This document shows positions 142 to 28,541 of a stretch of 44,685 bases of DNA, one piece after another (positions within the stretch are counted from its first letter, which is position 1; each line of letters begins with the position of its first letter). The position numbers were made by a program, and so were the translations under genes. Source of the stretch: Saccoglossus kowalevskii (Eukaryota > Hemichordata > Enteropneusta > Harrimaniidae); NCBI RefSeq assembly GCF_000003605.2, contig NW_003116469.1, positions 26,537 through 71,221 of the forward strand, read 5' to 3'. The notes under the pieces were generated by a model, which was not told the DNA's origin, did not search any database, and was given only the letters and a program-made list of their open reading frames with translations.

Positions 142-233
142 CATGGCATGACCTGCTGGGATACCATACTCTGTCGCGATGTTCCACGTCGGCATATAGT
201 GTTTACAATAATCTTCCAATGCCACCATTACAC
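142..233 (-). CDS. Gene A exon 4, catalytic-His exon
   Basis: The acceptor TTATAG is followed by 92 nt that finish a split Gly codon and encode 30 residues ending GIPAGHAM, before a GTTTGT donor. The matching exon of gene B is also 92 nt. His169 in AGHAM sits where the family's catalytic His is expected. The exon is visible only by homology to gene B and by phase, because it is too short to stand out alone. Confidence 0.8.
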
Positions 234-2743
234 CTATAAGTACAGATGATATACGCGATGTACATACTTAAATATTCAATATTAAAAAATGCGTTGATCG
301 CCCATGAATATGAATTTGTTTGATAAAACAATGAACTGCTTCCAATTAGTAGTACGTACTGTAAAATCAAGGCGCATGTGCACACGCGCAGTTCATCCAA
401 CGTAGTGTGCTCTGCAACACTAATACCAGTTAAAGTTGTTCATATTGAAATATACCCTTATATATATATATATACGAAAAAAAAAACGCTTTACCGATGT
501 ACTTAATAAATACACTGAGAGCAATATAACAATATAATATAAGGTTATTACGAAGATATCCCAAAGTATACACGAAGGCAGTACGGCGGGAGTATCGACC
601 GACACGCAGCGGAGGTCGATGCGACAGCGTACTGTCTAATTTTCACTGGGTTTAAATTTCACTGATTTACCATTTCAGGCATATTCAGTGGGTTTTAAAT
701 TCACGGTTTTATCATTTAGATAATATGTTTTATGCTAAATTTTACATATTCACTGGGTTTTAATTTAGCGCATTTTCCAGTCAGCGAAATAAGCCAAATT
801 AAAACCCAGTGAATAATTAACCATTTTACAGTATTATACATCTTGTCCCTAACCTTATTATTATACATCATGGGAATGCCGAAATCCAAAAAGTTTAGAA
901 CAGAATCAGCGAACTTCTTTGTGTGGAGTTCGATCAAATCCTGGTGGCAGCCATGTTTGTTTTTATTATTAGAGGACGCTCACGCGCGTATTCATTCCAT
1001 ATTTGGAATTCGCATTTTCTAATATGGTAGTAGAAAAATACCTCGTAAAATACCGCAAAATTACGGCATGCTGTAACTTATGGCGTTACGGTGACAGATG
1101 TATAATAATATCTAATATATGGACAAACAATATACGAAAACGATTAATCTATTTATGAATTACCTGGGTCGACAGTATTATCCATTGATCCACTGAATAG
1201 CCATGTTTTGCCACTTGCGAAGTTAGACGTAGCATCGATGTCGCCTTTTGAAGCGCTGCTATCGGTGTAATCAATGAGGTCTTGTACAATTATCTCTTCG
1301 GGGCTATTCATACAGGCGCCTATCGCCTTTGACACGGTGTCCTCCGCGCAGTGGTAAGGCCCTGCAAATGACAACGATGGCCATAGTTAGATGGAGTGAG
1401 GGTAAGCGATGACCGCCTGTATGAAACCATGGTGTTACGGGAAGTAAAATATGCATACAACCTTGAGTTACCATAATCATTCTCAACAAACGTGAAGCGT
1501 TATGCCTATTTTTGTTGTCGTTGTTGTTGTTTTGTTGTTTGGTATTTATTTGAAAACAAATAATCTCAATTTCCTGTTTGCTATATGTCATGATAATGTT
1601 TGTGTAAAATATAGAACAAATGTAAAAGGTGCCCTAAGCAGAGCAATTGGCGGATATTTTTCAGAATACCCGGATGTACATTTAAGACCATAATAATGAA
1701 ATATCTGGATTTCTTATAATGGTTTGTACTCTTGTTATGATTGGTTTGATCACATGTATCACATGCATCATGTGTAATCAGCTAAACCTAATGGTATTTT
1801 GTTCGTCAGTTTAAAACTATCGAAATGTATATATTTTCTGTGCGCCTATTTGGCAATTTCTGTATTTTTAGTTTTTTTACCAACTACTAGTCGCAAACTT
1901 TTATTTATAATTCATCAAATTTGTCACGAAAATTGATTAAAAACTGTGTATACCGCTTATGTCTACGCGAAAATTTTAACATTATGTCACTAAAAATATT
2001 TCACAAAATAACTCTTCAATATAAGTTCAAATGTAATATAATGCATTCAAATGTGGTTATTCTCATCATATTATGGAAATAATGTTTACGCCTAGTCACC
2101 ACATGAATCATGGCGTTAGGTTGATTTTACATTATCGTTGTACCGTTCACGGACGAGGCTATCCCGGAAAGGAAAATAATAATATTATTAAAATACAATT
2201 ATACATAATAATGGTACAAATTAAAACAAACAAAACAAATAGAATATGAATGCAGCAACAGCTGAAATGGGGGAGGAGGCAAATGGTATTTTAATATTAC
2301 CTCCAGCAAGGACACCGGAACCCATGACACTTGCCGAGTAGGCCACGTGCATTTGGATGGCCATGTAACCTCCAGATGAAACACCACTGGCAGACACTTG
2401 GTCCGCATCAGCTCCATAACTCCCTGGTGACAAAAATAAAACATATAACAAAACTTATTAGCTGAAATAAAAAATGCAATAACCGCAATATCAGTAATAT
2501 TATCTCCGCCTCGCATCGTATTGTATAGCTCGGAGTGCATATTTAAGCCCGAACGGCATAGTCCAATTATAGAGAACTGTGCAAATAGTAAATATTTGTC
2601 GCCCTTGAAACGAGTCGAGAATTGATGATTGGTAATAACATACCTAATGGCGGTGGATCTCCCGGGTCTTCGCACCACCACCACGGGCATTGCCCATAAA
2701 CAGTGTTGATTAACAACGCACATATAATAATTTGCAGCTTCAT
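142..2743 (-). CDS. Gene A: secreted PHB depolymerase-like esterase (3' part off window)
   Basis: Four exons are visible on the minus strand: 2743-2644, 2423-2301, 1361-1164 and 233-142. All have GT-AG borders and compatible phases, giving 171 residues before the left edge cuts the gene. The start MKLQIIICALLINTVYGQ is a classic signal peptide, so the product should be secreted or lysosomal. Residues 46-52 read SGVSSGG, the lipase box of poly(3-hydroxybutyrate) depolymerases, with Ser49 as nucleophile. Asp135 (in SGSMDNT) and His169 (in PAGHAM) follow. The 34-residue Asp-His spacing equals that of the fungal Penicillium funiculosum enzyme (Ser39, Asp121, His155, from memory). The family hydrolyses PHB or short hydroxyalkanoate esters. 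The FHGC oxyanion motif must lie off window. An in-frame ATG at 2803 would add 20 residues before the signal peptide; I prefer 2743, which has A at -3. Gene B is its tandem paralogue. Substrate is inferred from family only. Confidence 0.85.
538..1113 (-). repeat. Composite dispersed repeat, copy 1 (interrupted)
   Basis: Read on the minus strand, 1113-834 matches 7147-7410, and 635-538 matches the right half of the hairpin at 7421-7566. The left arm of the hairpin is replaced by an unrelated element at 636-833. The copy includes a short open frame with the peptide LHTKKFADSVLNFLDFGIPM, also open in copy 2 with few changes. A third decayed copy lies at the right edge of the window. It is a non-autonomous mobile element or a fragment of one; no transposase was recognised. 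Confidence 0.7.
636..833 (-). mobile_element. TACTGTAAA-type MITE, nested in composite repeat
   Basis: About 198 bp, inverted relative to a near-identical copy at 31518-31728. The right end reads CATTTTACAGTA, while the left end has lost its terminal bases and runs into AGACAGTACGC of the host repeat. Internally it repeats blocks such as TTCACTGGGTTTTAA. It has no coding capacity. Its position inside the hairpin of the composite repeat shows that it inserted later. Confidence 0.75.
1362..2300. other. Gene A intron 2, no feature seen
   Basis: This 939-bp AT-rich intron separates the lipase-box exon from exon 3. It contains a GTT-rich stretch near 1515-1535. I see no repeat copy, RNA gene or conserved reading frame in it. 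Confidence 0.6.
2301..2423 (-). CDS. Gene A exon 2, lipase-box exon with catalytic Ser
   Basis: The exon is 123 nt with acceptor CACCAG and donor GTAATA. It encodes the strand-turn-helix around the nucleophile: DADQVSASGVSSGGYMA, then a helix ending GSGVLAGG. Ser49 is the first Ser of GVSSG. The gene B exon 2 has the same length and borders but reads SGLGGGA at this site. Confidence 0.88.
2644..2743 (-). CDS. Gene A exon 1, signal peptide
   Basis: It encodes a Lys followed by a long hydrophobic run (LQIIICALLI), a likely cleavage site near VYG-Q, then a Trp/Cys-rich stretch CPWWWCEDPGDPPPL. It ends in phase 1 at a GTATGT donor, which joins exon 2 to give PLGSYGADADQ. Confidence 0.8.
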
Positions 2744-3093: not shown

Positions 3094-3635
3094 TTAAAGG
3101 GCGGTAGTCGTCTCGACAGGCATGCGCGTTTAGTTGTTTCGCAGATCGACGTGTATAAACCATGGTCATATCAATAAGTATATATTCTCTTAAGTTCACC
3201 GCTGAGTTCGTGATTTCGGTTTTTGCTGTGCGTCAGGCAGCCGATAGCGTCACGTAACGAGTTTTTATCCCGACTCCCTATTGAGACCGAGTCGAGTTTT
3301 ATTCGGTACGTGCTGACTCGGTACCAACTCTCAATACGTAGCGAGAACCATAACGTGAACGCCAAACCATTACAACAATGCACCCATTGCACACCAATGT
3401 GTTACACGTGGATGTCTGTGTACAAAAAATAGTTGCAGTTTTATGTAGATAACTTAGTGCCCGCCTCACTCTACAACATGCACATCTACTGGAGACCGGT
3501 ATACAAACATTTTGCAAACTCAAAAACATACATATCATGACCACATAACATTTTGACTTACAAAATTGAGATCAGGCAGCCACACATCTATAAAATTCTG
3601 CCTAATCATGGTATCGCTACTCCACCGCCCTTTAA
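3094..3635. mobile_element. Possible TTTAAAGGG-family element (long copy)
   Basis: The left end TTAAAGGGCGGTAGTCG matches the termini at 4272 and 11676. The right end, read on the minus strand, is TTAAAGGGCGGTGGAG. The agreement fails after about 13 bp, so these could instead be two solo ends. The interior is CpG-richer than its flanks and has no clear gene. Confidence 0.45.
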
Positions 3636-4043: not shown

Positions 4044-7000
4044 TTAAACTGCTGGTCGAGGAATGCACGTTGTAGAAACAACCGGCAAAGTGGGTTCCGG
4101 TTCCGGTAACACGCACTGATAGTGCACCAACTGTGACTCCATCACCTCGCATATACCATATACAGAGACCACGCGGTCGATGATATTCTTCACAAATTCC
4201 ATTTGTCTCCCGGATTTAAGATCTGCAAGATGAAGAACACATATTTATTCTAGAAATGACAACAAATAATCTTAAAGGGCGGTAGTCGTCGCGCCGCGCA
4301 TGTGCAACATAAGCATTGATTTTCCCACAATCCAATGCGCTTTTTAATGAAATCTGAAGTACGAATTTTGTCTTGTGTCCCACTTGCACTAATTACCTCA
4401 GGCGACTCCTCCGATACCTCATAATCACCAACAAAAATATCAAATTAAAGCTTGGTAACCTCGCAGTTTGTACTTGCTGGTGTCAAAATCGCCATCTTTG
4501 TTTATATGAGACCCATATCTCGCACATGCGTGGTGCGACGACCACCGCCCTTATAGCAATCAAGATTTGTTTTTGATTTTCATATTGTGTTCAATTCTCT
4601 CCCATCAGCTGTTTTACTGATATATGTTACCATTGTATTTTAAACAATAGATACGATAGCGGGAGGAAAAAAAAACATCACTTATTTAGGGACAAACTCA
4701 GATCCCGTGGAACTCTCGCTCTTACTGAGATCTCGACAGCCACTCAGTTGGCAATAATATACAGTATTTGTTTAGTGTAAATTGTCCTTGTGTGTACAAT
4801 ATGTAATTTATTCAAACTTTGTAGAGTTCCTTAGTCCTTTGAACACTAAAGTGAATGTCACGTTTCACAAAATAGGTGACATACTGTGTTTCAATAAATA
4901 TACTTAGTGAATGCAAAATCGTGTTAATTTGGTTCAAATCTCACAAAAAAAACATATACAAATTCCCAAAATGCTACACAAACATCTTAACGAAAAAATC
5001 ACGTGTTCAAAAGATGCGTATATAATAATTTATGAGAAAGTGTGGTCACAGTAATGTGCATGTTAATCTGGTTTACATACAGTAACGTGCGTGATAATCT
5101 GGTTTACGAAACAGTAACATACGTGGTAAACTGGTTTTACGAAACAGTAACGTGCGTGGTAAACAGGTTTACGTCACAGTAATGTGCGTCTTAATCTGGT
5201 TTACGAAACAGTAACGTGCGTTGTAAACAAGTTTACGTCACAGTAATGTACATGGTAATCTTTATTACGTCACAGTAATGTTCGTGGCAATCTTGTTTAC
5301 GTCACAGTAATTTGTGTGGTAATCTGGCTTACATAATAGTAATATGCATGGTAATCTCGTCGGCACAATAATGTGCGCGGTAAACAGATTTACGTCACAG
5401 TAATGTGAGTGTTAATCTGGTTTACGAAACAGTAAAGTGTGTGATAATTTGGTTTACAAACCAGTAATGTGATAATCTAGGTCATGTAACAGTAATGTGC
5501 GCGGGAGTCTGTTTTACGTCACAGTAATGTGAGTAATAACCTTGTTCACGTCACAGCAATTATATTGGTAGTCTAATTTACGTCACAGTATGTGCGTGGT
5601 AATGCGTTTACTGCACAGAAATGTGGTAATCTGGTTTACGTCACTATTAGCGTGGGAATCCGGTTTATGTGGGATTTTAATTCGAGATTACTAAACGTGT
5701 ATTGTCTACTCACCATAACTAGCATTGGTGTAACCCCACCTGCGATAAAACAAAAATAATGTATATGAACGTTATTTTTTGTGACTCTAATTGACGTGTT
5801 TTAAACAAAGTACCACTGTAGTAGTTAATACTTATTTTATCCAAAATACAATGATACTTTTTAAGATGACCGCCCCATATCTGTTATCGTCGATATTCAA
5901 TATTATTAACCATGCCGAGGATACATTTAGATTTACGTCGAGTTAAGTTGTTTACTTTGACATAAGAGAAGAAGAACGATTTTGTATATCCTTCTTACCA
6001 ATCAAAACATCCTCTAGTATTTCCAATCGACGACACAGCCTGTGGATACACTACGATGATATTATTTAAATCTGCAACTTCATTATACCCAGAATTCAAC
6101 GCAAATTCGTCTACAAGCACTTCTCTGAAAAATGATTACATTAGTGATTTTGTTATGTTACGTTTTGTTGTGATGGGTCGGTTTGCGCTGCTTCATATTA
6201 TGAACTTCGTTACATGTTATAGCATGTTACGTTATTTTATATTATGTTATAAACATCATCATAATGATTATGTAATTCTCACCTGCCTTGGTCACAACCA
6301 TGGAATACAATATGTACTTTACATCCTGTAAGAGTGTTAAATCGTAATTATTTTTATTGTAATGATTCGCCACATTTGTTTCCCATGAATCCTCCTGTGA
6401 TATCAGGTTTGTAATGTAGTAATACACACTATGATATACTCGCTATCATATGCTAAGAATGCCTGTACTGTGTATCACATCAGTGTACTTATGAGGGTGA
6501 CATGAATGCGACTAAATTGTGACCTGTCGCAATACTGTGTACATCCAAGGACTACATATCTCAAAGATATGGACTATATAGTCTTGACTTCCAATAAAGC
6601 GATCATATGTGTAATAATGAGACTATAAAAATTATGTACCAAGGACAATATTTCATGGTGATCATTGCCTATACAACAATTAACGCATCTTCAAAATACA
6701 AATTAAACTACGTTGGCATGGTCACGTACACTGATGACGATATTTGTGTTCACAGATGGGGTCACTGTTATAATATACTGACCTGCGTAGTCATTGCATT
6801 TATCCGGTACATAGATGTATCCCGTGTCATCTAAACTAGATGTCCCAACACCGGAAGGTTCCAGTTCCGTCTGGTCAAACTCTAATAGCTAGAAAAAAAA
6901 GTACAATTTCTTCAAAATTTGTTTTAACGTGTACTTCATTTGGCTAATATTTTCTTCTAAATAACATTGTTGTAGTTATTGTTGTTGTTCTGCGTGTGAT

Positions 7001-10000
7001 CACAGATAAAGTTTAATACGTTGCGAGCTTACCTGGCCGGACAGTACGCCACCATAAGACAACGGTTCCTGAAAGAAAATGTGAACACAAAACAAGACCA
7101 AGGTAAACCCACTTTGAAAGTAATATATATATATATATTAACTCATCTATATTATTATTATGCATCTGTCACCGTAACGCCATAAGTTACAGCGTGCCGT
7201 AAATTTGCGGTATTTGACAGGGTATTTTCATCCCACCATATTAGGAAATGCGAATTCCAAATATGGAATTATTACGCGCGTAAGCGTTCTTCTAAAAATA
7301 AAAACAAACATGGCTGCCATGGTTTGACTGGACTCCATACAAAGAAGTTCGCTGATTCTGTTTTAAACTTTTTGGAATTCAGCATTCCCATGATGTATCC
7401 GTGGAAGAAAAAGTTGTATAATAAGGAGGTTATTACGAATATACCTCAAAGAATGCACTCAGACAGTACGCTGTCGCATCGACCTCCGCTGCGCGTCGGT
7501 CGATACTGCCGCTGTACTGTCTTCGTGCATACTTTGAGGTATCTTAGTAATAACCTTATATTATTGATCAACAGTCCATTTTTAGAACTTTTAGAATAAA
7601 TCGTTTAAAATATATACATAAAAATACAACTCCATGTTCAAAGCTTTCCCAATGTTTACTGAATATTATCCCACTTCATACTAACATTGTTATCACTTTT
7701 CTTCACACGCAATTGGCGTGATGTCATTGTGTAACAACCGGCAATGTTGGTTTTGTTTCCGCTCGAGATCGTATGCGCAATGGGTTATGGGAATACACAT
7801 CTCGGCATTGTGAAATGATTTTAGGGAAAGAAACAATCTGAAAAATGATTTTGAAAACAAATTCAAAAACATATATTTTTGGATTTCCTTTGTCTTGAGT
7901 TACAAAGGGAAGAAGCTGAATAAAATATATGTCGGGTGTTCAACAACTCGTGTATGAACGATAACTTTAAAGTGCTGTGTTTTGCTGCATAAAAACGAAA
8001 GAATTTCACAATGTCGGACGCGGAAAGTATTCATCGTAGTGTTTGTGGCGGACAGGACTATAAATAATAATGACAGACCTTTACAATAAGCACCCTCGAG
8101 TGACGAAATTTTTCTGTGACGTAAATGTGTCATGTTCACACTAATAATATGGGTATGAACTATACAGCCATACTTATATCATCTACGTAATCTTGGCGTC
8201 ATCATACAATCTCTTCCTTATAAATCAGTCTCCAGCCTGAGTTGAATAACGTGTGAATGTGAGGTAACTGAAGCACATGGTCACGTGGTATAATGAGATA
8301 ATACTATACCTGAAGATTGCCATATATCTGGTTCAATAAATTAAACGCTTCTGGCAAATCACAGTCATTGATGTAAGGAGTTCTGCTTGTATCGCACGCA
8401 TTCCCGTAGTGCTCCGTAATCTATACAAAACATATATTTTATTACCAGGGTACCACAGGTGTTACACAACTTCAACGTGACACATGCATTCTCCCTCCAT
8501 CTCTACCTTTTTTCTATATCTATGGTGCATGTAGTATAATAATTGTTCTATAGCATTCATTAAAAGTGTTGTGTCATGACCATTGCCAAATTTCACAAAC
8601 AACTGTATTTACTAATAGAACTTTATGAAATATCTCGCAATATATGTCACCAGCAATAAATAAAAAGTAAGTTTAAATTATCGAATTAAACAAGAATCCT
8701 TTACCCTGGAAGAGTGAATACGAATAATAGTGTAGTAGTATATTACCATAGCGAAATCAGCTGCTACGTCATACTTTGTCGCTATTTGGGACAAAGGAAT
8801 AAACTCTGTGTAGTAGCTTTCGAGTTGTTTGACAACGCCTGAAAAGTAAATACAGTGTGTGTTGTAGATGAAAGTTTTCCCAGCAGAAAGTCCCTACAAT
8901 TCCAAATCTTCAAATAAATTTTGACATGCGACTATGCCTAGTAAGGCCATCAGAAATCTAGCTGTCCAATTGCACTCCAGTACACTGCATATCTATGAGC
9001 TCGAATGAGTTTTGTGGGAATGACGTCATCCATGTAGGGCATCATTGTCTTTCAAGAAAATCTCAGAGTTCGCCTATACTCTGAGCTAAGCAGTGCGGTC
9101 GCCGCGGAAAACACAATTGGTATATGGACCCTGTGAAGTCTGACCTCCTTCGAGTAGTGGGCGGACCTTTCCAGCACAAGGCTGGGATTGCAGATCAGTC
9201 CTTCGATTCATTCGTATTAGTATTATGAACACATTTTGGACTTACACCGCAGAAAGTAAAACCACACATAAACACTATAGAGTGCAATGAATAGCCCACT
9301 TCCTGGTCGACGTTTGAAACAAGAAGTGCGATCCGGTGCGATGGTCAGTGATAGGTGTAGTAAGTAAATGGCGGGACGTTTAAACGGATCCAGCTGCACC
9401 CTCTAACTTGTAGCAAACTGTTTGATCATTTGTCAAAACCTATTACTACATGCCTATTCAATGCCTATTTAGGCGTTGGGTGTGTAAAATGATCCACAGG
9501 ACCGATAAAAACAGCGACACTTGAACATTTGACATGCAAGACATTTTTCTTACTCATACTGTCTTATTAAAGAACGGCTCTCTTGTTTTCTGACTAATGT
9601 CCTCGGAGGGGAGATTAAGACATTGTCCTAGAGACCAAGCCTCCCTCTCGCAGATTTTGGGTAGCGAGGACGAGGGGGAATTGCTGTTTTGTTCCGTCAG
9701 AGTCCTGCATATGTATTATTTTAGAATACCTAGGATGAAGGGTTGACCCGGAACTGGTAAATGAGCTTTTTCTCGTTCAAGCTTTATAATAATTTTGCCG
9801 GCACCCTCTCCCCTGGTAATAACAACTGATCATTCCCTATGACAGTGCATATTCTCTACCTTGTACGACCGTGGTGTCCAAAGTGCCACTGAACAAGTAC
9901 ACATGGTCGTCTGCAAGATTGGATACGGGATCAATGTCACCGCTGGCTTCTGCTTCATACGTAAACGCTATAAGATCATCTAGTACTATCTTCTCTGGTT

Positions 10001-12330
10001 CGTCTGAACATTCACCCACAGCTTTTAACGTACTACCCTGCGCACAATGGTATGGTCCTACAGAATAGAGTAACGGTACAAATAACGTAACACGGTGAAT
10101 ACCTCACTACCATAAATGACCCCCGGGGGAGGCTACTTCCACATTAAATGGGTAAGGGTGTGAAGCCCACCTCTCGTATACCATACTCACTTCTAAACCA
10201 TTTTTTTTTCTATTTATATACCCACTTTTAAACAAAAGTGTTTTTAGCGAAAAAAAACAACACCCAGCTCACAACTTTCGCAACCAGTGAGCGCATCCGG
10301 CCGATGCAATTTATTCAGCCTTTTCCGGTATTTGGCCTTGAATATAAGAACCTGTGAAAAATGGAATAAATGCTACACACTTCTAAACCAAACCATTGAT
10401 AAATGACCACCCACAAAATAACGTGAAATGACACCCCAGTCGGGCGGCACATACCCGTATTACACTTCTATGCAAACTGTCAATGCCACTTCCCGGACAC
10501 ACTATATGTATTACTAGTATCTCGTGGGTACTTTTAATCGGGGTATTAAACAGTTCTGTGTTTTCAGCATTTTGTAGAAGTGACATTTTTCTTTCCCGGG
10601 ATTATGCAGTCATTTACATGAGCGAATTAGAAGAAGCTCGACCTTGTGGAACCTTGGTTATACACGCACATATCCCACCATGCAATGCGGCAATAACATC
10701 ATTGAAAATGGTTGCCCCAACAACAAATCTTACATCAGACCTTGATGAACAACTTTGACTCTTTTCTTGTGAAACTGTTTCGATCCCGCATTTTCCATAG
10801 TGTGGAAGTGAAATGAACTCACTAAACCGTTGTCCAAGAGCAGAAAACAAATGACAAAGCAATCCACATTTAGAAAAAAGAGTGAGCACATCCTGCTTCA
10901 CAATTTAGCCTCAATTTTAGTCAAAATGTAGAACTAAAGCGTGATTTTAGATACTATGTCGAATGAAGAACTCTTACAGTGATTTATTTTCATTTTGTTT
11001 GTTTTTTTTCCAAAAAAAAGAAGACCAACNNNNNNNNNNNNNNNNNNNNNNNNNNNNNNNNNNNNNNNNNNNNNNNNNNNNNNNNNNNNNNNNNNNNNNN
11101 NNNNNNNNNNNNNNNNNNNNNNNNNNNNNNNNNNNNNNNNNNNNNNNNNNNNNNNNNNNNNNNNNNNNNNNNNNNNNNNNNNNNNNNNNNNNNNNNNNNN
11201 NNNNNNNNNNNNNNNNNNNNNNNNNNNNNNNNNNNNNNNNNNNNNNNNNNNNNNNNNNNNNNNNNNNNNNNNNNNNNNNNNNNNNNNNNNNNNNNNNNNN
11301 NNNNNNNNNNNNNNNNNNNNNNNNNNNNNNNNNNNNNNNNNNNNNNNNNNNNNNNNNNNNNNNNNNNNNNNNNNNNNNNNNNNNNNNNNNNNNNATACGT
11401 GACGATGTTGTGACTAAATAGACGTGATCAGAAGAACGGTGTGGCCGTACAATACACCTGACCAGGTGATATCTATACGTGATCATAAGGCCATTAGACA
11501 TGGCCATCATGTGATAACCTACCTCCTGCCAGTGTGCCAGCACCCATTATACGGGAAGAATACGCTACCTGTACCTGTACTGCCATATAGGCGCCACCTC
11601 CGAGACCACTGACTGATACTTGGGTTGGGTCAGCATCATACCCCACTGTTGACAAAATATGGCATGAATATTGTGTTTAAAGGGCGGCAGTCTTCACGCC
11701 GCGTTCTGTTCGATATGGGACCCATAGCGACGCATACAACGCGTGTAAAATACATTGCTTATTTACATGAAATTCGAACACGCGCTGCGCGACGACCACC
11801 GCGCTTTAAATGAGAGGGAACATTCGTTGTAATGTAAAAATGATGATCGCACAAGAGTAGCTCCGGTCTCTGTTGAATCAAGCTTAGAGAAGTAATAATA
11901 AACGACGCCAACTAGAATGACATATTTTTTGGGAAATTGGTACATGATGACAAATTATATGTTTACCGCATTTTGAACATACGACATCTTGTATGAACGT
12001 CATCTTTAAAAAAATACACTGAAATAGTTAATGTCACAATGTTGGGAACTTAGAAATAAAAACGTCTCATTTTGTATATAGTATAAGTGAGTTATAACAT
12101 GAAATGATTCTGAAAACAACTAATGACGTCATCAATGGGTACCGAGAGCGATAACACAGTCGTGGATCCGAATTCATTCACGTCACAGAGTAATTGTAAA
12201 TTTCGAACACGCGCTTGCATACATACGTATGGTGAATGTGTAATGTTGACAACTTACACAACGGATCCGCGCCGCTGACCAAAACTATCAGTGACATATG
12301 TATTATACAGAACCTCCAAAGAGTCACCAT
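4044..12330 (-). CDS. Gene B: secreted PHB depolymerase-like pseudoenzyme (complete, 370 aa)
   Basis: Eleven minus-strand exons: 12330-12258, 11645-11523, 10057-9860, 8838-8747, 8420-8310, 7068-7033, 6888-6783, 6325-6283, 6124-5999, 5739-5714 and 4222-4044. All have GT-AG borders and matching phases; together 1113 nt. It has a signal peptide (MVTLWRFCIIHMSLIVLVSG), then the PHB depolymerase fold. Conserved landmarks are DADPTQVSVSG (28-38), PYHCA (67-71), SGTLDTT with Asp126, VFHGCDQG with oxyanion Cys257, VVYPQA, and CFDWWGY. The length fits the fungal single-domain enzyme (about 340). Two catalytic positions are lost: Gly40 replaces the nucleophile Ser (SGLGGGA), and Phe160 replaces His (AADFAM). 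Each needs at least two base changes from the ancestral codon. The frame is intact throughout, so this is a maintained gene rather than a decayed one. It may bind ligand or substrate without hydrolysis, or have another role. The assembly gap lies in intron 2. Confidence 0.88.
4272..4555. mobile_element. TTTAAAGGG-family MITE with ~34-bp terminal inverted repeats
   Basis: The left end begins TTAAAGGGCGGTAGTCGTCG and continues with CGCC and GCGCATGTGC. The right end on the minus strand begins TATAAGGGCGGTGGTCGTCG and continues to GCATGTGCG, so about 34 bp are inverted with few mismatches. The 284-bp element is non-coding. It ends 50 bp from the acceptor of gene B exon 11. Relatives lie at 11676 and 26772, and a distant one at 38974. 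Confidence 0.8.
5046..5668. repeat. Minisatellite, ~32-bp unit, about 19 diverged copies
   Basis: The unit is roughly CAGTAATGTGCGTGGTAATC followed by TGGTTTACGTCA or TGGTTTACGAAA. Eight copies contain an exact TTACGTCA (first at about 5169) and one has TCACGTCA. Copies differ by several substitutions and some by small deletions, so the array is old. It lies wholly within gene B intron 10. Confidence 0.85.
6283..6325 (-). CDS. Gene B exon 8, oxyanion-hole exon
   Basis: A 43-nt exon with acceptor CTTACAG and donor GTGAGA encoding CKVHIVFHGCDQG. The HGC motif is the family's oxyanion-hole signature, and Cys257 corresponds in spacing to Cys250 of the fungal enzyme. It is kept even though Ser and His are lost. 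Confidence 0.85.
7069..8309. other. Gene B intron 5
   Basis: A 1.24-kb intron. Positions 7147-7566 are the second copy of the composite repeat. The remainder (7567-8309) is AT-rich with no repeat or gene that I can recognise. Confidence 0.6.
7147..7566 (+). repeat. Composite dispersed repeat, copy 2 (intact), with long hairpin
   Basis: Positions 7147-7410 match 1113-847 inverted. Positions 7421-7566 form a long imperfect hairpin: the left arm begins ATAAGGAGGTTATTACGAAT and the right arm on the minus strand begins ATAAGGTTATTACTAAGAT. Both arms include ACCTCAAAG, CAGACAGTAC or GAAGACAGTAC, and ATCGACC, around a CG-rich loop. The open frame at 7324-7599 contains LHTKKFADSVLNFLEFSIPM. The pairing suggests a foldback-type non-autonomous element. 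Confidence 0.75.
8747..8838 (-). CDS. Gene B exon 4, His-to-Phe exon
   Basis: 92 nt with acceptor TTTTCAG and donor GTAATA. It encodes VVKQLESYYTEF, then IPLSQIATKYDVAADFAM. Alignment without gaps to gene A exon 4 places Phe160 at the catalytic His (gene A: PAGHAM). The codon is TTC, two changes away from CAT or CAC. Confidence 0.85.
8839..9859. other. Gene B intron 3, no feature seen
   Basis: A 1.0-kb intron, CpG-richer than most introns here. It includes a patch with short inverted similarity around 9600-9675 (GTCCTCGG ... GCGAGGAC). I recognise no gene or repeat family in it. Confidence 0.5.
10058..11522. other. Gene B intron 2, contains assembly gap
   Basis: The intron between the exon with the altered lipase box and exon 3. 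Unknown bases fill 11030-11394. The remaining sequence has no coding evidence. Because exons on both sides join in phase and match gene A, the scaffold join across the gap is probably correct. Confidence 0.7.
11030..11394. other. Assembly gap (Ns)
   Basis: 365 unknown bases, preceded by a T-run and an A-run (GTTTTTTTTCCAAAAAAAAG), which may have broken the assembly. Confidence 0.99.
11523..11645 (-). CDS. Gene B exon 2, degenerate lipase box
   Basis: 123 nt with acceptor TCAACAG and donor GTAGGT, the same length as gene A exon 2. It encodes GYDADPTQVSVSGLGGGAYM and then a helix ending GAGTLAGG. The box G-x-S-x-G has become GLGGG. The codon at the nucleophile is GGA, which is not a single step from any TCN serine codon. 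Confidence 0.9.
11676..11810. mobile_element. TTTAAAGGG-family MITE, short copy
   Basis: A 135-bp element. The left end is TTTAAAGGGCGGCAGTCTTC then ACGCCGCG; the right end on the minus strand is TTTAAAGCGCGGTGGTCGTC then GCGCAGCGCG. The interior TTCGATATGGGACC is shared with 26772-26902. It starts 31 bp upstream of the acceptor of gene B exon 2, so it may contribute branch-site sequence. Confidence 0.8.
12258..12330 (-). CDS. Gene B exon 1, signal peptide
   Basis: The ATG sits in AAGATGG, a good animal start context. It encodes 24 residues, MVTLWRFCIIHMSLIVLVSG then ADPL, and ends in phase 1 at GTAAGT. The phase and the join to LGYDADP parallel gene A (LGSYGADADQ). This exon was assigned by phase and context, so it is less certain than the others. 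Confidence 0.72.
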
Positions 12331-17620: not shown

Positions 17621-20600
17621 TCACAAAACAAATCTGTCCTGTTCTCCAGTTTGCTGACCACCAGATCCAAGTCTTTCATTACTTTTTACCCTCAGAGCAT
17701 TGTCTAGTTTATTTTCAGCTGCAAGATTTTTAAAATGCTGCAACAAAAGAAAGAAATCAAATAAATAAACATCATTCCAAGAATGTGTGGCAAATAGGCT
17801 ATATCAGTAATTTTCAACTTGCATTTTCCTGAAACAGTATACTGCCTCTGTACCAAATCTGAATAAACTTAGTAACTGTATTCTCAAGTCATATGAAAAA
17901 TAATTGAAAAATAATGAATGCGTCTCAGTTTTGTCAACAGGTGTTACCCATATTCCATGTTTGAACACAATCGACCAGAAAAACTCTATAATGCTCTACT
18001 CTACAGATACAAAATTAGTTTTTAGGATTTTTTTTTTGGTAAAAATATGGCTGCCAGTCAGCCATTATCTATATGAACAGAAAAACAAATGTGGGGAATA
18101 TGTTTAATCATCATGTATCAACCATATATCAAGTTTGGGGAAAATAAGTATGGTATAGGTAAAATATCACAATGCTAAAACATTTTATCTCAAATAAATT
18201 AGGTGCATGTACAGTATTACGGCATACATTGTATGCAAATTTCAGGCTGTATACTAATCTGGCGAAAATGCAATTATTAACATTCAGTTAAATTCCCAGA
18301 AGAGCATACATCAATCTTACAATGTTCCCTATTTATTTTTTATGTGCAGTCTGAGTCCTGGCTGCAGTCATCTTGTTGGTGGACAAGATCCAAAACCAGG
18401 AGAAAAAAATGACCACCAAAAAAGGGAATACAAAAAAGAACGACTTACTTGTGAATTTTTAAACTCTGAGTAGAGTGTGAACAATACATGTAGACTCTGT
18501 ATTTTACTTTTATAAATAGGTATATCTAAAATGCCGCAGATCATTTCAACATATTCTGAGAGATCACAGTCTAAGTCAGCAGTAGGTAAACCAACTTTGT
18601 TGAGTAAATCTTCAAACTCTGCCGGCCATTCCTGCATGAGGGAGTCGATATCTGGCATGGTTCTGTACAAAATGATAAACTTTAGTTTAGAATAGCAGTG
18701 TTTTATGTTACATTTAGACAGACAATACAGGAGTATGACAATACGGTATGTAGCGAGCCAAGCGGCCTTCTTGGTACCCGATATGTTTTATGGTGGTACA
18801 CTGTAGCAACTAGTTATATAGAGAGCTAAGTGAGCTCCTTGGTAGGTACATGTATTTATGAAGCAGCAACAAGGAATGGAAGGAGCTACGTGGGTATTGT
18901 AAAACTACTGTGTATGTTTGAAGTTCATATCATACATTGAAAGCATCATAACTCAATTCATTATACGCTTACGTAAATGACAGAGTGACTGTGTTAATAT
19001 TTTAATACGCCAGGATACAGCGAATACAATTATTGGGTTATGTGTGTGCTTCTATTGGAGATGCAATTTAAAAGAGCAAATACGGTACACCATAATATTT
19101 TTGACAATGTTTCATTTCCGGATCCCTTGATAAGCACAGAGACAAACATACGTTCATTTTGCATGTTGGAATTGCATGTTTGACTGACAATATTCATCAA
19201 AGTCAATAAAGTATTAGTGACTTACTTGTTGTATTGTACAGTGGGAGGAGGTTTTGACCGATGTAAATCATTGATACTATCAATCCAGCTCTGTACTGAC
19301 TTGGGGTGCTTGTCAGCTTCTTCTATGCTTCGCACTTGAACTGACTTTGTGGTTGTCTGTTTGGATATGGCGCGAAGTTGTAGATCAAGAACTGTTGGGT
19401 CCGACTGCCGAGCACACGGCTCATCTAATACAATGAGACCAAGTGTAGATGGCTTACCATCTGGTTCAGAAATCTGAAAGAGAATTTTACAAAAAATATT
19501 AAATTATTTTATTCTTTTTCTAAATTATTTACTGGCCTATAATTTTTGCTGTAACTTTAGATATACTGTCTTCATGTCATAAGCCAAGCACCAAGCCTTT
19601 TCTTGTGAAAATTAGCTGGAAGCTAAAAATAGTTTGGAGAAGGTGTGCTAATCAAATCATTACAAAATTGTATTGATTGAGAGAGTGGTGGTTATTGATT
19701 GGGTGAGTGATAAGCAAGTGGAGTGATAACTCAATAGAAAGTAAGATTAGAAGCGCATGAGACAACTTAAGAAATTTACTTGTTGAGTGAATATAATTTA
19801 ACAAGTCATTGTCAATGACACGTCCCCGTTCCGTTCATATTTGAGTGACATATACATTTTGTACATTCAAAGCAGATCATGACTGAAATCTCAGACCACT
19901 TTCAGTGGTCTGATCTGAAATGCACCTGCATAGGTACAACACATTGTACTAAATCTGAAAAAAATCCATCCATCCATGCATGACTGAGATCCGGTTCCGG
20001 AATTGTGAAAATACGTGATTTTGATGCATTTTCGGCCTTAAAATGGCCATCATTCAGCTATTGTTAAGCGGATCATGAAACAAATGCACATATCTATTTG
20101 TGACATGATGTGTGTGAAGTTTGAACTTGATCAATCTAGACATGTCTCGGATACGGATCCAGAACTGAATTCTTTAAAACAAAATGGCCGCCAGTCGGCC
20201 ATTTCAAACTTGATCTGAAAAAAAATGACGTACATCAAGGTCCTATTATGTTTAATGTACCAAATTTGAACAAAATCCGTCCGGAATGGTGAAAATGTGC
20301 GATTTCAATGCATTTTCGGCCTTAAAGCGGCCGCCATTTGGCTATCGTTAATGAGATCATGAACCAAATGCACATACATATTTGTGACATGATGTACTTT
20401 GTGTGTGTGAAGTTTGAACTCGATCAATCCAGGCATGTCTCAGATACGGATACAGAACTGAATTCTTTAAAACAAAATGGCCGCCAGTCGGCCATTTCGA
20501 ACTTGATCCGAAAAAAAAAATGATGTGCATCAAGGTCCTATTATGTTTAATGTATGTACCAAATTTGAACAAAATCCGTCCATGCATAACTGAGATCCGG

Positions 20601-23600
20601 GTACGAAATGGTGAAAATGTGCGATTTTGATGCATTTTCGTTAATCAGATTATGAAAAAAATGCATGTGCATATGTCCCATATAATGTGTGATGTATGAG
20701 TGAAGTTTGAACTTAATCGGTCCATGCATGTTCGAAATACAGGTGATCACGGACGCACGGATGCAGGGATGCACAGACGCACACAGGGCAAAACATAAGT
20801 CCCCGTCCAACTGTCTTTGTAGTGTATCGTTCACAAAAAAAAACATTGATAATCACCAGGCTTTTTTATGGACCAAAAGCAACTTAAACATGTTTCACAA
20901 CAAGACTCAAAATTCATGAAGGCCATGAAAAAGATTGCTTACATGCGACACCTGAATGATTTCATTCACATGTTAGACTATATAGCTGGCATCAAATTAT
21001 TTACCTTGAGAAATGCATCAATGTCGCCAACTGCTGGGATAAAATCTGGAATGAATGGTTTTAGTTTGTGTTCAAGTTCTATTGACTGTGGTGTGTATCT
21101 AGTGATATACTGGAATAGTTCTTTGATGTCTGGTTGTACCGGGAGATGTTCATAATCAGCTGGATCATAGGCACTACAATAAAGAAAACATTATCTTGAT
21201 TCTTCCAATGAAGTTCAGGAACCAGGTATTTCTCTAATCAATTTTCAATTTTAATTTTATTTGTCAGATCAACAATCAAAACCTTATTACAAAGGCAAAT
21301 AAAAGAGAGAGCAGAGGTGTTTAACTCCCTAGCAATAAGGGCACCTTGGTTCTGTAACATGCACTGTGAACAGGACCAGCACATTGGAGTACTAAGTTTG
21401 TACTAAGTTCAAGCACTGTACTACACTCAAAGAGATCTCAACTACAAAAAATACATTTATAGGTAATATTATAGATCGTATGAAAAAGTCTGCAGTGTTT
21501 AGTCAAGGACATAAAATAATCACCATGCATTTTTATCGAACCAACAGCTTTTTAAACATTTCTATGAGACTCAAAATTCAGGAACAGCATGTATATAATA
21601 GCATATATGCTTCACCTGAACGATTCAATGCCCTTCAGAAAATAAATAAGAGCTAATTTTAGAAATTTTTGTCTTGAGATTGAGTGCCTGCTCAAATCCT
21701 GGTTATGCAAAATATGCCATCTTTTACTGAGTAAATGGTTGATGCAAGTGCATTGATTCAATGTCCATAGACTGACAGAATAAGGGGCAATATATCGGAG
21801 CAATATAATGTTGGTTCACTTGTATACGAGAACATACGATAACGTACCCTTCAAGTGCAACACCGTGGTCATCATCGTCGTCATCTTCATCGTCGTCATC
21901 TGACGAATCCGTCCCATCTTCGTCATCATCATCATCATCGTCGTCAGTGTTATACGGCTTCTGTTCTTTGGATTGAGGCAGCTGTCCTATGGGCTGCACA
22001 AAAAGATAAATAATTTGGAAATTGGTAGCATTTTCATGAATATTGCTTGTATTTATATCACTATATTTAATTACATGTGCGGGTTTCTATTTGGCTGCAT
22101 AATATAATTTATTGTTTAGTTAAAAAAATGCAAATACAATAGAGGGAATAAAGAGTAAAGTGTAAGAGTAATTAAAAATAATACTGTAGAATACTGGAAT
22201 TAATTTTCAAAGAATACCTTTTTTGGGTGTTTTGTATGGAATTTATTTTCACTGATTTTTGACGAGTGGAATGTAAAATATAGAAAAAATGTATATTCGC
22301 TAGATTTTATTTTCACTGAATCATTTCTTCAGCAAAAACAGCGAAAATTAATTCCAAGCGAAATAAAATATTCCACAGTAATGTCAATATGTATTTTCAT
22401 GACCATTTTTACTGTATGGCTTTATATGTACTGAAATAGCTGCATGTTATTTTTTTTAATTTGACAGCATGTCTGAATTAGGAATGAATTTAGCCAAAAT
22501 AACATGCTACATATACCTCTGAAGATATGCTATATTATCATTGGTCACTGAGAATACATCATTATTCCAAAAATTCATGCAAAGTTAACAAAGAAATTAA
22601 CAGAACTGTACATGTAAAGCCTGCAGGACCAGAGACAACAGTTCATATTCAAAATATAAAAGTAATACATTTTAAAAGAGGCAGGGAACTGTGTTTTTCA
22701 CAAATTATTTTACAATATTTAATCCTTGTAATAGTACAATGTGGTTTAATTTAATGCTGACCCAAAAATTAATTTGTCATCTATTTGTATGCTATGTGTA
22801 TTAGAAATATGCCATTACATACAATTTTGTATCTCCATGTGTTTACCCATTTAGTGCAACAAAGAAAATTTTAGTTGAAAAAAAAAAAAAAAAAAAAAAA
22901 ATGAAAAGAAGACAATTGTTATCTTGACTCAGACATGTGCAGAGTAAGCTTTGACATAAAAGCTGAGTTTACTGTAAAAACTATTCCATCAACCAGAACA
23001 TTAAAGTAGATAAATCAGTCTGAATGAGAGCAAATCTGTAGCAATGATAAACGTGCTTAGAGGGCGTACACACACATTGAGTTTTCAGATAGCATGGTTT
23101 AGTATAAAGAGAGTAATTATAATCATATAATAATATTGTGTTCCATCATTACCAGTAATATATTGTGATCAATCAAGCTGGAAGGCTTTGCAACAAAAAA
23201 ACAGAAATCCCTTCTTATTAAATATATTTCATAAATAATGTAAACAAAATAACGGGAAGTTATGACGGGAATATCACAAAGTAGCATTAAGACTTACGCT
23301 TAGTGAAGGTCAATGCTATCTTGTACTGTCTACGTGCTTGCTTTTGCAGTACTCTCGTGATAACCTTATCACTGTACATTTTTTACTGCGTGTAAGTGAT
23401 GATTTGGTGAGATACATAACATCTAAATGTATAACGGCGTGAAATGCCAGTGAAAAGTATTCATGTTCACGATTCATTGTCTGCATTTTGTGATGTGATT
23501 CTGTTTCCGTCACTCACTACATAGTTGCTGTGATTGACGTAAACAAGGTAAGTGTGTGAATGTGATGTGAAAACTTTTTCAAACAAAGATTTTCAAATGC

Positions 23601-26600: not shown

Positions 26601-28541
26601 TTAAGGTTTTCAAATTGGTTAATGACCATTTGCTTGCATTAACCTTTCTAGAAAGTGTCAGAATGTGTTAAAATTTTAGCAGCCCATAAAGGCGGTTGTA
26701 GTTTGGTAAAATGTAATGATTACAATTGAAAAACAAAAAAATTTAAAAATTAAAAAATAACTTTGGTGTGATTGAAGCGCTACAGTCGTGGCAGTGTCGT
26801 GTTCGATATTGGACCGATAGTCACATATATTATGCATGTAAAACACATTGCTAGTTTACATGGAGTTTAAATACTTGCAGCAGTGCGACTGTAGTACTTT
26901 AATTAAAACAAGGTTAGTTATTGCATATAAAAAGCAACATAACTTTATGGTGTACCTGTATTGGGTGTATTTGCTCTGGCTTCTCAAGCTGAATAACAAT
27001 AATACAAAAATCAATTATAATGTATAACTCACGCTGACTCCCTAATGAGGACAGAGTATGATGTTGTAAAACAATTGATAATGAAGATGTCCCTGGTGGT
27101 AACCTTAATACATGTACATTGTTTAGTATTGAAATGCTACAACAGATCATCCTAAGCCACTTTGCTACCAGTGGCATTTGTTATTTGAGAGTTCAAAACT
27201 GCCAGAACTGAAGAACCAAGAAGCTACAGTAATCAGGGACATACCTTATTTTCCATAGTTCCTTCTTCAAACTCATCTGTGCTGTTGTCAGACATTGAAT
27301 CCCTTGGCGAGATATCTTGTTGTGCACCACGACCTGAAGTTGTAAATAAAAACTTCAACATACAGGTTTGAGTGTAAAATCTAAACATATGTCTAGGTTA
27401 TACATGGAAATACTATTGCGAGTTAACAAAGTTTTTTGGCTTTGGTACATCAGTGTCCTTACACAAATGCATCTCTTCAAATATGGGTATACAAAGCTAC
27501 TGGATTAACCGTCAAGTTTCACTGGATTTGAAAATGACTGTTGCACCATCAAAACTCTGGTTTTTGAGCATGCAAAGGACACTATTGACTTAGACTTGCC
27601 CAGCCATGTTAATTTTATAATTCTTTCATTTTTAAATTTTGGTCCGTCTGTGGTGTATTTAATATTCAGTGGCGTTATTAAACTCGGGAGTAGAATACTT
27701 CCAGAACAAGAAGTACACATGCATTTGTGCAAAAGATTCTATGCATCATATCATGCCTGCGTTACAGTTGTGTAAAGCAAGCCACATCAAAAGTTATCTT
27801 TCTCATTGGTGCGCGACAGAACAGACCAGTCGTGGTAATTGTGCATCAACAGTTATATACTGTGGTTATACAATTTCGAGACTGCACAGTTGCCAGTACA
27901 GACTGGAACCTATTGATGATATTACCTGCAGCACCTGGCACTCTTGGAGTCGGGGTGTAAGTAGAAGCAACTTCTTCTGCGTCTGGTACTTCCAATGACT
28001 CGTCGTATGGTTGATTAACGACAATCCGAGTCTAAAGAAAATGAAACACATTTTTTTTAATAATTCAGTAATGAACCTGGTAAATATGGTCACGCAAATG
28101 CCAAGGGCGGACGGGAGAGCTCAACATTATTCAGGATATCAAGAACATAGAATCATCTGGGGGACTGTGACAGAACATAAACAGAAAGTTTTCGAGAGAT
28201 AAAAAAACAGGACCTGCAGTGCAGCATTTCTTACATTATTTTTAATGTGAGAGATAACTAAATTAACCTCAGAATATCATAAATATAAAACAATTTCAAA
28301 ATATTTTGATACGGATTTTTAAACACTATAAGAACACAACCTTTGCGCGCTTACGACCCCTATCAAAATTCGCGTGCACCCTGCAGGACCCGGGACGTTT
28401 TTGATCAATTTCAGAAAATATGACCCGACAAGTCAGACGAAACATATCCAACTGGGAAAATGACGTTTAATAGCGATCAATAACGAATAAAACAGTATGA
28501 ATTACGCTTACTCTGCCCCTGTCCTCGTCTGAATCGGCCAT
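17621..28541 (-). CDS. IFT46: Intraflagellar transport protein 46 (IFT-B subunit), complete
   Basis: Eight coding exons: 28541-28512, 28031-27926, 27333-27245, 21993-21848, 21173-21005, 19473-19226, 18662-18449 and 17737-17621. All have GT-AG borders and matching phases; 1119 nt, 372 residues, TGA stop. IFT46 is a core subunit of the IFT-B train that carries cargo along cilia. Recognised blocks are an acidic Asp-run tract (exon 4), ALEG-AYDPADYEHLPV and IKELFQYITRYTPQ (exon 5), KPFIPDFIPAVGDIDAFLK, DGKPSTLGLIVLDEP (exon 6), then MPDIDSLMQEWPAEFEDLL and LDIPIYKSKIQSLHVLF (exon 7). These follow the vertebrate protein closely. The C-terminus (exon 8, HFKNL start) is less conserved. The N-terminus is about 58 residues longer than in human, from exons 1-2 and part of 3; Met59 (MSDNSTDEFEE) matches the human start. 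It is divergent with a plus-strand gene 221 bp away. Confidence 0.96.
17950..18140 (+). repeat. Diverged relative of the 295-bp repeat
   Basis: Contains the hairpin ATGGCTG-CCAGT-CAGCCAT (18047-18065) and flanks such as ATGTTTAATCATCATGTA that resemble the tandem copies at 19930-20750. It lies in IFT46 intron 7. Confidence 0.5.
19474..21004. other. IFT46 intron 5
   Basis: A 1.5-kb intron mostly made of a three-copy tandem repeat (19930-20750). The remainder is AT-rich with no gene. Confidence 0.65.
19930..20750 (+). repeat. Three-copy tandem repeat, ~295-bp period, with hairpin
   Basis: The landmark CATCAAGGTCCTATTATG occurs at 20233 and 20528, giving a 295-bp period; a diverged first copy starts near 19938. 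Each full unit has TGCATTTTCGGCCTTAAA, CACATA(C/T)(A/C)TATTTGTGACAT, and a hairpin with arms AAATGGCCG and CGGCCATTT around CCAGT (20182-20204). The third copy lacks the CGGCCTTAAAG...GGCTATCG block. The array ends in a GGACGCACGGATGCAGGGAT region followed by CAGACGCACAC. Confidence 0.8.
21848..21993 (-). CDS. IFT46: IFT46 exon 4, acidic tract
   Basis: The exon encodes PIGQLPQSKEQKPYNT, then two Asp/Glu runs separated by GTDSSD, ending HGVALEG. An acidic N-terminal region is typical of IFT46, which is otherwise conserved from the next exon on. The GAC/GAT repeats make the tract prone to length change. Confidence 0.93.
22182..22380 (-). mobile_element. TACTGTAAA-type MITE, subfamily 2
   Basis: 199 bp, inverted relative to copies at 34701-34891 and 43559-43750. 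The ends are TACTGTAGAATACT and, on the other strand, TACTGTGGAATATT. The interior has repeated GTGAAAATAAA and AATTAATTCCA blocks. Confidence 0.75.
23732..23940 (+). mobile_element. TACTGTAAA-type MITE, subfamily 3
   Basis: 209 bp from TACTGTAAAAGC to GGTTTTATAGTA. The internal AATAACAATAAAACTC and CATCAAATTAGTGAAAA blocks recur at 42317-42661, where another element interrupts them. Confidence 0.65.
26772..26902. mobile_element. TTTAAAG-family MITE, diverged short copy
   Basis: 131 bp, homologous to 11676-11810 through TTCGATATTGGACCGATAG and the block GTAAAACACATTGCTAGTTT. The terminal inverted repeats TTGAAGCGCTACAGTCG and TTAAAGTACTACAGTCG are decayed. Confidence 0.65.

Follow-up and report, generated by a model that had tools for sequence, protein, structure and literature searches.

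Many enzyme families include catalytically dead relatives, and animal PHA depolymerases have reportedly been the subject of work in gutless worms. The type 2 catalytic domain of extracellular PHB depolymerases has its oxyanion hole C-terminal to the catalytic triad, with the nucleophilic Ser in a lipase box, GxSxG (PMC2666664). For the Penicillium funiculosum enzyme, PMC5445757 describes the triad Ser39-Asp121-His155, with an oxyanion hole formed from Ser40 and Cys250; the first-pass annotation of the DNA analyzed here had named the same triad. The S39A mutant of this fungal enzyme has been solved with a bound trimer, and Trp307 recognizes the ester (PMC9878459). For Dictyostelium PHAZ, PMC4339202 describes a pair of copies per choanoflagellate genome, as well as matches in animals outside the Eumetazoa. 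A catalytically dead PHB depolymerase was not reported among the papers listed by our searches, in a collection that covered subscription papers thinly and bioRxiv preprints not at all, which makes this a weak indication that none has been described.

The window considered here, a 44,685-nt stretch of Saccoglossus kowalevskii DNA to which all positions refer, carries a member of this family, gene B, that has intact coding structure and is altered at two of the three triad positions. From its ATG to its stop, gene B occupies 12330..4044 on the minus strand, exactly the extent given in the first-pass annotation for a full 11-exon frame, and its 1113 nt of coding sequence encode 370 aa, with GT...AG at all junctions of the 10 introns, zero internal stops and zero frameshifts. 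The motifs SGLGGGA, AADFAM, VFHGCDQG and CFDWWGY that had been ascribed to it were all found. Exon 1 (12258..12330; this and all exons below are on the minus strand) holds the start codon and a hydrophobic beginning, MVTLWRFCIIHMSLIVLVSGADPL, which we judged by eye to be a probable signal peptide; it has no CxWWWC motif and ends at a GT donor. The nucleophile elbow, SGLGGGAYM, with Gly at the Ser39 position (fungal numbering), lies in exon 2 (11523..11645), while exon 3 (9860..10057) encodes GPYHCA, the Cys70 and Cys79 positions and the retained Asp121, which is Asp126 of the precursor. Exon 4 (8747..8838) encodes AADFAM, with Phe at the His155 position, and is followed by exon 5 (8310..8420), with the Cys169 and Cys180 positions, exon 6 (7033..7068) and exon 7 (6783..6888), with the Cys234 position. 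The Cys241 position and FHGC, containing the retained oxyanion Cys250, are in exon 8 (6283..6325); exon 9 (5999..6124) encodes YPQA and GCFD, the latter with Cys304 kept, and intron 9 splits the Trp307 codon. The 26-nt exon 10 (5714..5739) contributes to WGYTNASY, and exon 11 (4044..4222) completes the protein with a C-terminus that has three cysteines, and contains the stop codon. A run of N at 11030-11394 (365 bases) lies inside intron 2 and touches no exon.

Comparison with gene C, a paralogue on another contig, provided independent support for this gene model, since exons 2, 3, 4, 7, 8, 9 and 10 are of equal length in both genes (123, 198, 92, 106, 43, 126 and 26 nt); exons 2-4 also match in length those of gene A, a further paralogue within the window. 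Exon 5 measures 111 nt in gene B and 114 nt in gene C, a difference of one codon, exons 1 and 11 also differ in length, and a search for exon 6 of gene C did not find it. The three-cysteine C-terminal tail is common to genes B and C.

Several other features were observed in and around these introns. Intron 10 of gene B contains a minisatellite at 5045-5640, with a period of 32/64 and approximately 17.6 copies of a 32-base unit at 71-72% matches. Five copies of an AAAGGGCGGTAGTCGTC-like end (3 plus, 2 minus) lie at 3096, 4274, 4537, 11679 and 11791, forming facing pairs at 4274/4553 (gene B intron 10) and 11679/11807 (gene B intron 1); the pattern occurred in 0 of 100 shuffles, and it looks like a family of short inverted-repeat transposons. 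Elsewhere in the window, 18371-21176 on the minus strand encodes the C-terminal domain of IFT46 (intraflagellar transport 46), which matched PF12317 with E 5.3e-100 when its exons were joined by eye and with E 4.7e-32 for 18371-18787 alone. This neighbor, together with the introns, favors a ciliated eukaryote over bacterial contamination as the source of the DNA. Scanning of the window for RNA families gave no match.

The spliced gene B product matched the P. funiculosum PHB depolymerase 2D80 over residues 26-326 (E 8.8e-41; 35.5% identity over 290 aligned residues) and the S39A mutant 2D81 about as well (E 8.6e-41). Judged from these alignments, gene B is by descent a type 2 extracellular PHB depolymerase of the P. 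funiculosum PhaZ family, although it lacks two features that define the enzyme, the Ser and the His. The Pfam model for Esterase_PHB, PF10503, scored spliced gene B at 14.7 bits against a gathering cut-off of 23, found no match in the partial gene A, and found none in the whole genome when this was searched exon by exon in six frames, which indicates that the model suits this group poorly. Relatives may thus be overlooked in annotation.

To place residues in fungal numbering, the offset was set from Ser39, after which the fungal chain showed the expected letters at Asp121, His155, Cys250 and Trp307; in the alignment with the S39A mutant, the mutated residue served as a marker of the nucleophile position. 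At these positions gene B has Gly39, Gly40, Asp121, Phe155, Cys250 and Trp307. In precursor numbering its triad positions read Gly40-Asp126-Phe160, compared with Ser49-Asp135-His169 in gene A and Ser56-Asp142-His176 in gene C, and the spacing is 86 and 34 in each of the three genes. The order and spacing that had been claimed for genes A and B were therefore as stated, and the claimed retention of the Asp and the oxyanion Cys was borne out by the alignment. Cysteines occupy 8/8 of the fungal chain's cysteine positions in gene B, and likewise in gene C, a comparison of positions only.

We compared gene B with bacterial relatives from a scan of prokaryote genomes, which returned at least 544; the best 80 were taken, of which 79 had a usable frame. 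Ser39, Asp121, His155, Cys250 and Trp307 were each present in 79/79 of these (best 80 of at least 544). The scan used patterns that accept Gly in place of the Ser, but only the best-scoring loci were taken, and dead members are possible among the other 464 or more. Where the lipase box would be, gene B reads GLGGG, without the nucleophilic Ser that all 79 of these bacterial relatives share with genes A, C and D; the catalytic His, found in the same 79 and in genes A and C, is Phe160. The first-pass annotation had set the whole of SGLGGGA against an SGxSSGG box, and the loss of Ser39 stands, but the final Ala is ruled out as a lesion, the same letter occurring in 35/79 bacterial relatives and in gene C. 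The same annotation had described "double-step" codon changes: the Ser39 codon is TCA in genes A and D, TCT in gene C and GGA in gene B, a difference of two or three bases, and the His155 codon is CAT in genes A and C and TTC in gene B, a difference of three.

Because established serine-hydrolase chemistry needs the residues that have been replaced, gene B very probably encodes a catalytically dead protein, as far as can be told from its sequence. It could instead be an altered enzyme, with a re-wired site that uses another nucleophile or non-hydrolytic chemistry and draws on Asp121 and the oxyanion Cys. Retention of Asp121, Cys250 and Trp307 in conserved surroundings would fit such a protein, but the Gly and Phe that now stand at the triad offer neither a nucleophile nor a base, and the Ser37 remaining in the elbow is a family-wide residue (79/79 bacterial relatives), which leaves the elbow with no obvious new nucleophile; we regard this explanation as very improbable.

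The family in this genome, which measures 572 Mb and has gaps, comprises at least four genes, A, B, C and D, represented by 19 exon matches on three contigs: C1015 carries A and B, C3985 carries C and C127 carries D. Gene A adjoins gene B in tandem on the same strand, with 1,300 bases between the stop of B and the start of A. Its exon 1 (2644..2743, minus strand, as are the following) encodes a probable signal peptide and CPWWWC, exon 2 (2301..2423) SGVSSGGYM with the Ser present, exon 3 (1164..1361) the Asp, and exon 4 (142..233) AGHAM with the His present. Only exons 1-4 are readable. The remainder of the gene falls outside the window, in an assembly gap of 19,937 N or more; apart from 24 bases that overlap the window, this flank consists entirely of N. 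Gene C has an intact triad. Of gene D, the search recovered exons 1 and 2 only, with a run of N starting approximately 1.4 kb further on; its Ser is present, and its His position is not readable.

Could the catalytic losses be an artefact of the assembly or of one allele, the true gene B having Ser and His? Gaps of N do occur in the contig, both in gene B intron 2 and, on a much larger scale, next to gene A. Against this, the differences amount to at least five bases in two separate exons, are accompanied by neighboring replacements and leave the frame undisturbed, and a second copy of gene B bearing Ser and His, a finding that would have spoken for an artefact, was absent from the 19 exon matches that the genome search yielded, in which the best candidates were scored. 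We consider an artefact extremely unlikely, the least probable of the explanations weighed here.

Gene B is 54.8% identical to gene C over 347 residues and 43.5% identical to gene A over 161, and, being closer to C than to A, it is not a recent duplicate of its tandem neighbor. In a tree that included 40 bacterial relatives together with the fungal enzyme, genes A, B and C formed one group apart from these (SH-aLRT 100), within which gene B likely branches outside A and C (SH-aLRT 92, with gene A filling 37% of the columns). The first-pass annotation had spoken of an active paralogue, comparing gene B with gene A; triad residues are present in both A and C, and because gene A runs into the assembly gap, gene C is the better stand-in for this putatively active gene.

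Behind their hydrophobic N-termini, the paralogues carry a CxWWWC motif, as CPWWWC in gene A, CHWWWC in gene C and CQWWWC in gene D, while exon 1 of gene B is shorter and has none. When the whole window was checked for an alternative first exon with CxWWWC, the motif turned up on the minus strand in exon 1 of gene A and nowhere else. At 27088 the plus strand encodes CPWW, but stops follow, and this string was rejected as a first exon of gene B. Among the bacterial relatives, WWW occurred within 70 residues upstream of the elbow in 1/79, and there without the cysteines. The motif may have been gained on the eukaryotic branch, with gene B either losing it later or never having it, and it possibly forms a polymer- or surface-binding loop.

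The residues lost from gene B could have been lost neutrally in a recent pseudogene, in which stops and frameshifts are yet to come. The absence of CxWWWC from exon 1 would be in keeping with this, but the conservation of the gene speaks against it. Fifty-four columns were at least 95% constant in the bacteria, and genes B and C each keep 45 of them; Ser39 and His155 are the sole columns of the 54 that C keeps and B has lost. The family residue is kept by A or C in 47/54 columns, and in three of these gene B has a different one (at Ser39, Ser40 and His155); the chance that three departures in 47 would include both catalytic residues is approximately 0.003, a value calculated post hoc. The departures of B relative to C were Ser39 and His155 at constancy cut-offs of 0.9, 0.95, 0.975 and 1.0, joined by G265V at 0.8 and 0.85, while the C-only departures numbered 6, 4, 2, 2, 1 and 1 at cut-offs of 0.8, 0.85, 0.9, 0.95, 0.975 and 1.0. 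At the two strictest cut-offs, gene C keeps one column more than gene B (34 vs. 33 of 38 at 0.975, and 26 vs. 25 of 28 at 1.0).

Relative rates agreed with this picture. In Tajima tests with 80 outgroups (79 bacterial relatives and the fungal enzyme), unique changes averaged 20.9 in gene B and 29.0 in gene C, the count for B was the higher one with 4/80 outgroups, and chi-square exceeded 3.84 with 7/80. Gene B evolves no faster than gene C. Pairwise omega between B and C was 0.006 over 347 codons, which, dS being saturated, we read only as well below 1; the pairwise fit for A and B did not converge. In a three-gene codon model over 157 codons, some branch lengths of which were at the optimizer's bound, fixing omega = 1 on the B branch was worse than free omegas by 13.5 in 2 x lnL. 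A dN/dS near 1, which would have spoken against maintenance, was thereby rejected for the B branch as a whole, with dS saturated; the omega of this branch averages in any period before the loss of catalysis, and it is compatible with a short, recent relaxation such as a young pseudogene would have undergone.

How long such a relaxation could have lasted was bounded by simulating neutral decay, with substitutions only and no constraint of any kind assumed. The frame and splice sites were still intact after 0.03, 0.04 and 0.06 neutral changes per site with probabilities of 0.07, 0.03 and 0.007, respectively, and at least 2 changes in each catalytic codon had accumulated with probabilities of 1.5e-5, 4.4e-5 and 2.1e-4. 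A recent pseudogene would thus have to combine, at 0.03-0.04 changes per site, a 7-3% chance of surviving intact with a chance of 1.5e-5 to 4.4e-5 of changing both codons, and yet show lost codons that differ by at least two and three bases beside 11 intact exons and 20 intact splice sites. Neutral drift brief enough to leave the frame and splice sites undamaged would very probably not have sufficed for both codon changes, so that, unless a multi-base mutation or selection produced them, the frame was kept long after catalysis had become dispensable. Taking this bound together with the matching conservation of genes B and C and their relative rates, we consider a recent pseudogene unlikely, and we are fairly confident that gene B is being maintained rather than dying. 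The "maintained pseudoenzyme" of the first-pass annotation is well founded as regards the loss of both catalytic residues from an intact gene; for maintenance itself the support is indirect and comes from residue conservation, the relative rates, the omega values and the bound on neutral decay.

Our best reading, which we consider somewhat more likely than not, is that the product of gene B is a catalytically dead relative of type 2 PHB depolymerases, probably secreted, that is kept by selection and binds polyester or its oligomers without hydrolyzing them. Gene B would have arisen by an old duplication and then been retained by selection. With neither a nucleophile nor a general base, an acyl-enzyme could not form and hydrolysis would not occur, whereas the retained fold and Trp307 could still bind chains of (R)-3-hydroxybutyrate or some related ligand, be it a polyester or an ester, much as the trimer is bound in the S39A complex. 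That the kept function is specifically the binding of polyester or oligomers we propose tentatively, and with slightly less than even confidence, on the basis of the retained Trp307, Cys250 and fold and by analogy with the S39A-trimer complex. Binding by gene B could also be weaker than that of its paralogues, given that the missing CxWWWC is possibly itself a binding element.

In the animal, such a non-cutting binder might, for example, present granules to the triad-bearing paralogues, sense granules or hold oligomers. Decoy and regulatory-partner roles, both raised in the first-pass annotation, are possible in principle. A regulatory subunit would heterodimerize with A, C or D and modulate their secretion, stability or activity, and the tandem arrangement of genes A and B on one strand, 1,300 bases apart, the retained fold cysteines and the three-cysteine tail shared with gene C are all consistent with it; we nevertheless think it distinctly improbable as the main explanation of gene B. 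More ambitious, and in our estimation doubtful, is the proposal that gene B encodes a secreted receptor or decoy for bacterial PHB, acting with or against the triad-bearing paralogues, and hence a lectin-like binder derived from a hydrolase and anciently maintained in an animal.

If gene B does bind PHB, a eukaryote would have a protein devoted to recognizing a storage polymer of bacteria, and this protein would be a naturally occurring equivalent of the S39A trap mutant that could serve as a PHB probe. Gene B also makes it testable why genomes of this kind keep PHB depolymerase genes.

Of the known systems, 2D81 resembles the proposed dead, ligand-binding gene B: it has no nucleophile, its fold is kept, and the mutant still binds the 3HB trimer (PMC9878459), but it is an artificial single change with His155 present, whereas gene B is natural and both residues are gone. 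The enzyme 2D80 shares with gene B the type 2 catalytic domain with a C-terminal oxyanion hole, the Asp, Cys250, Trp307 and the eight cysteine positions; it differs in that gene B is without Ser39 and His155, is divided into 11 exons and has an extra C-terminal cysteine tail. The bacterial relatives (from Duganella, Aquabacterium, Polaromonas and others), whose best segments are 35-45% identical to the query among the best 80 of at least 544, differ from gene B in having Ser39 and His155, alongside Asp121, in all 79 aligned. Neuroligins, cholinesterase-like adhesion proteins, have an alpha/beta-hydrolase fold that has lost catalysis and serves binding. They provide a working likeness for what gene B may have become, although they belong to another alpha/beta-hydrolase family and bind another ligand.
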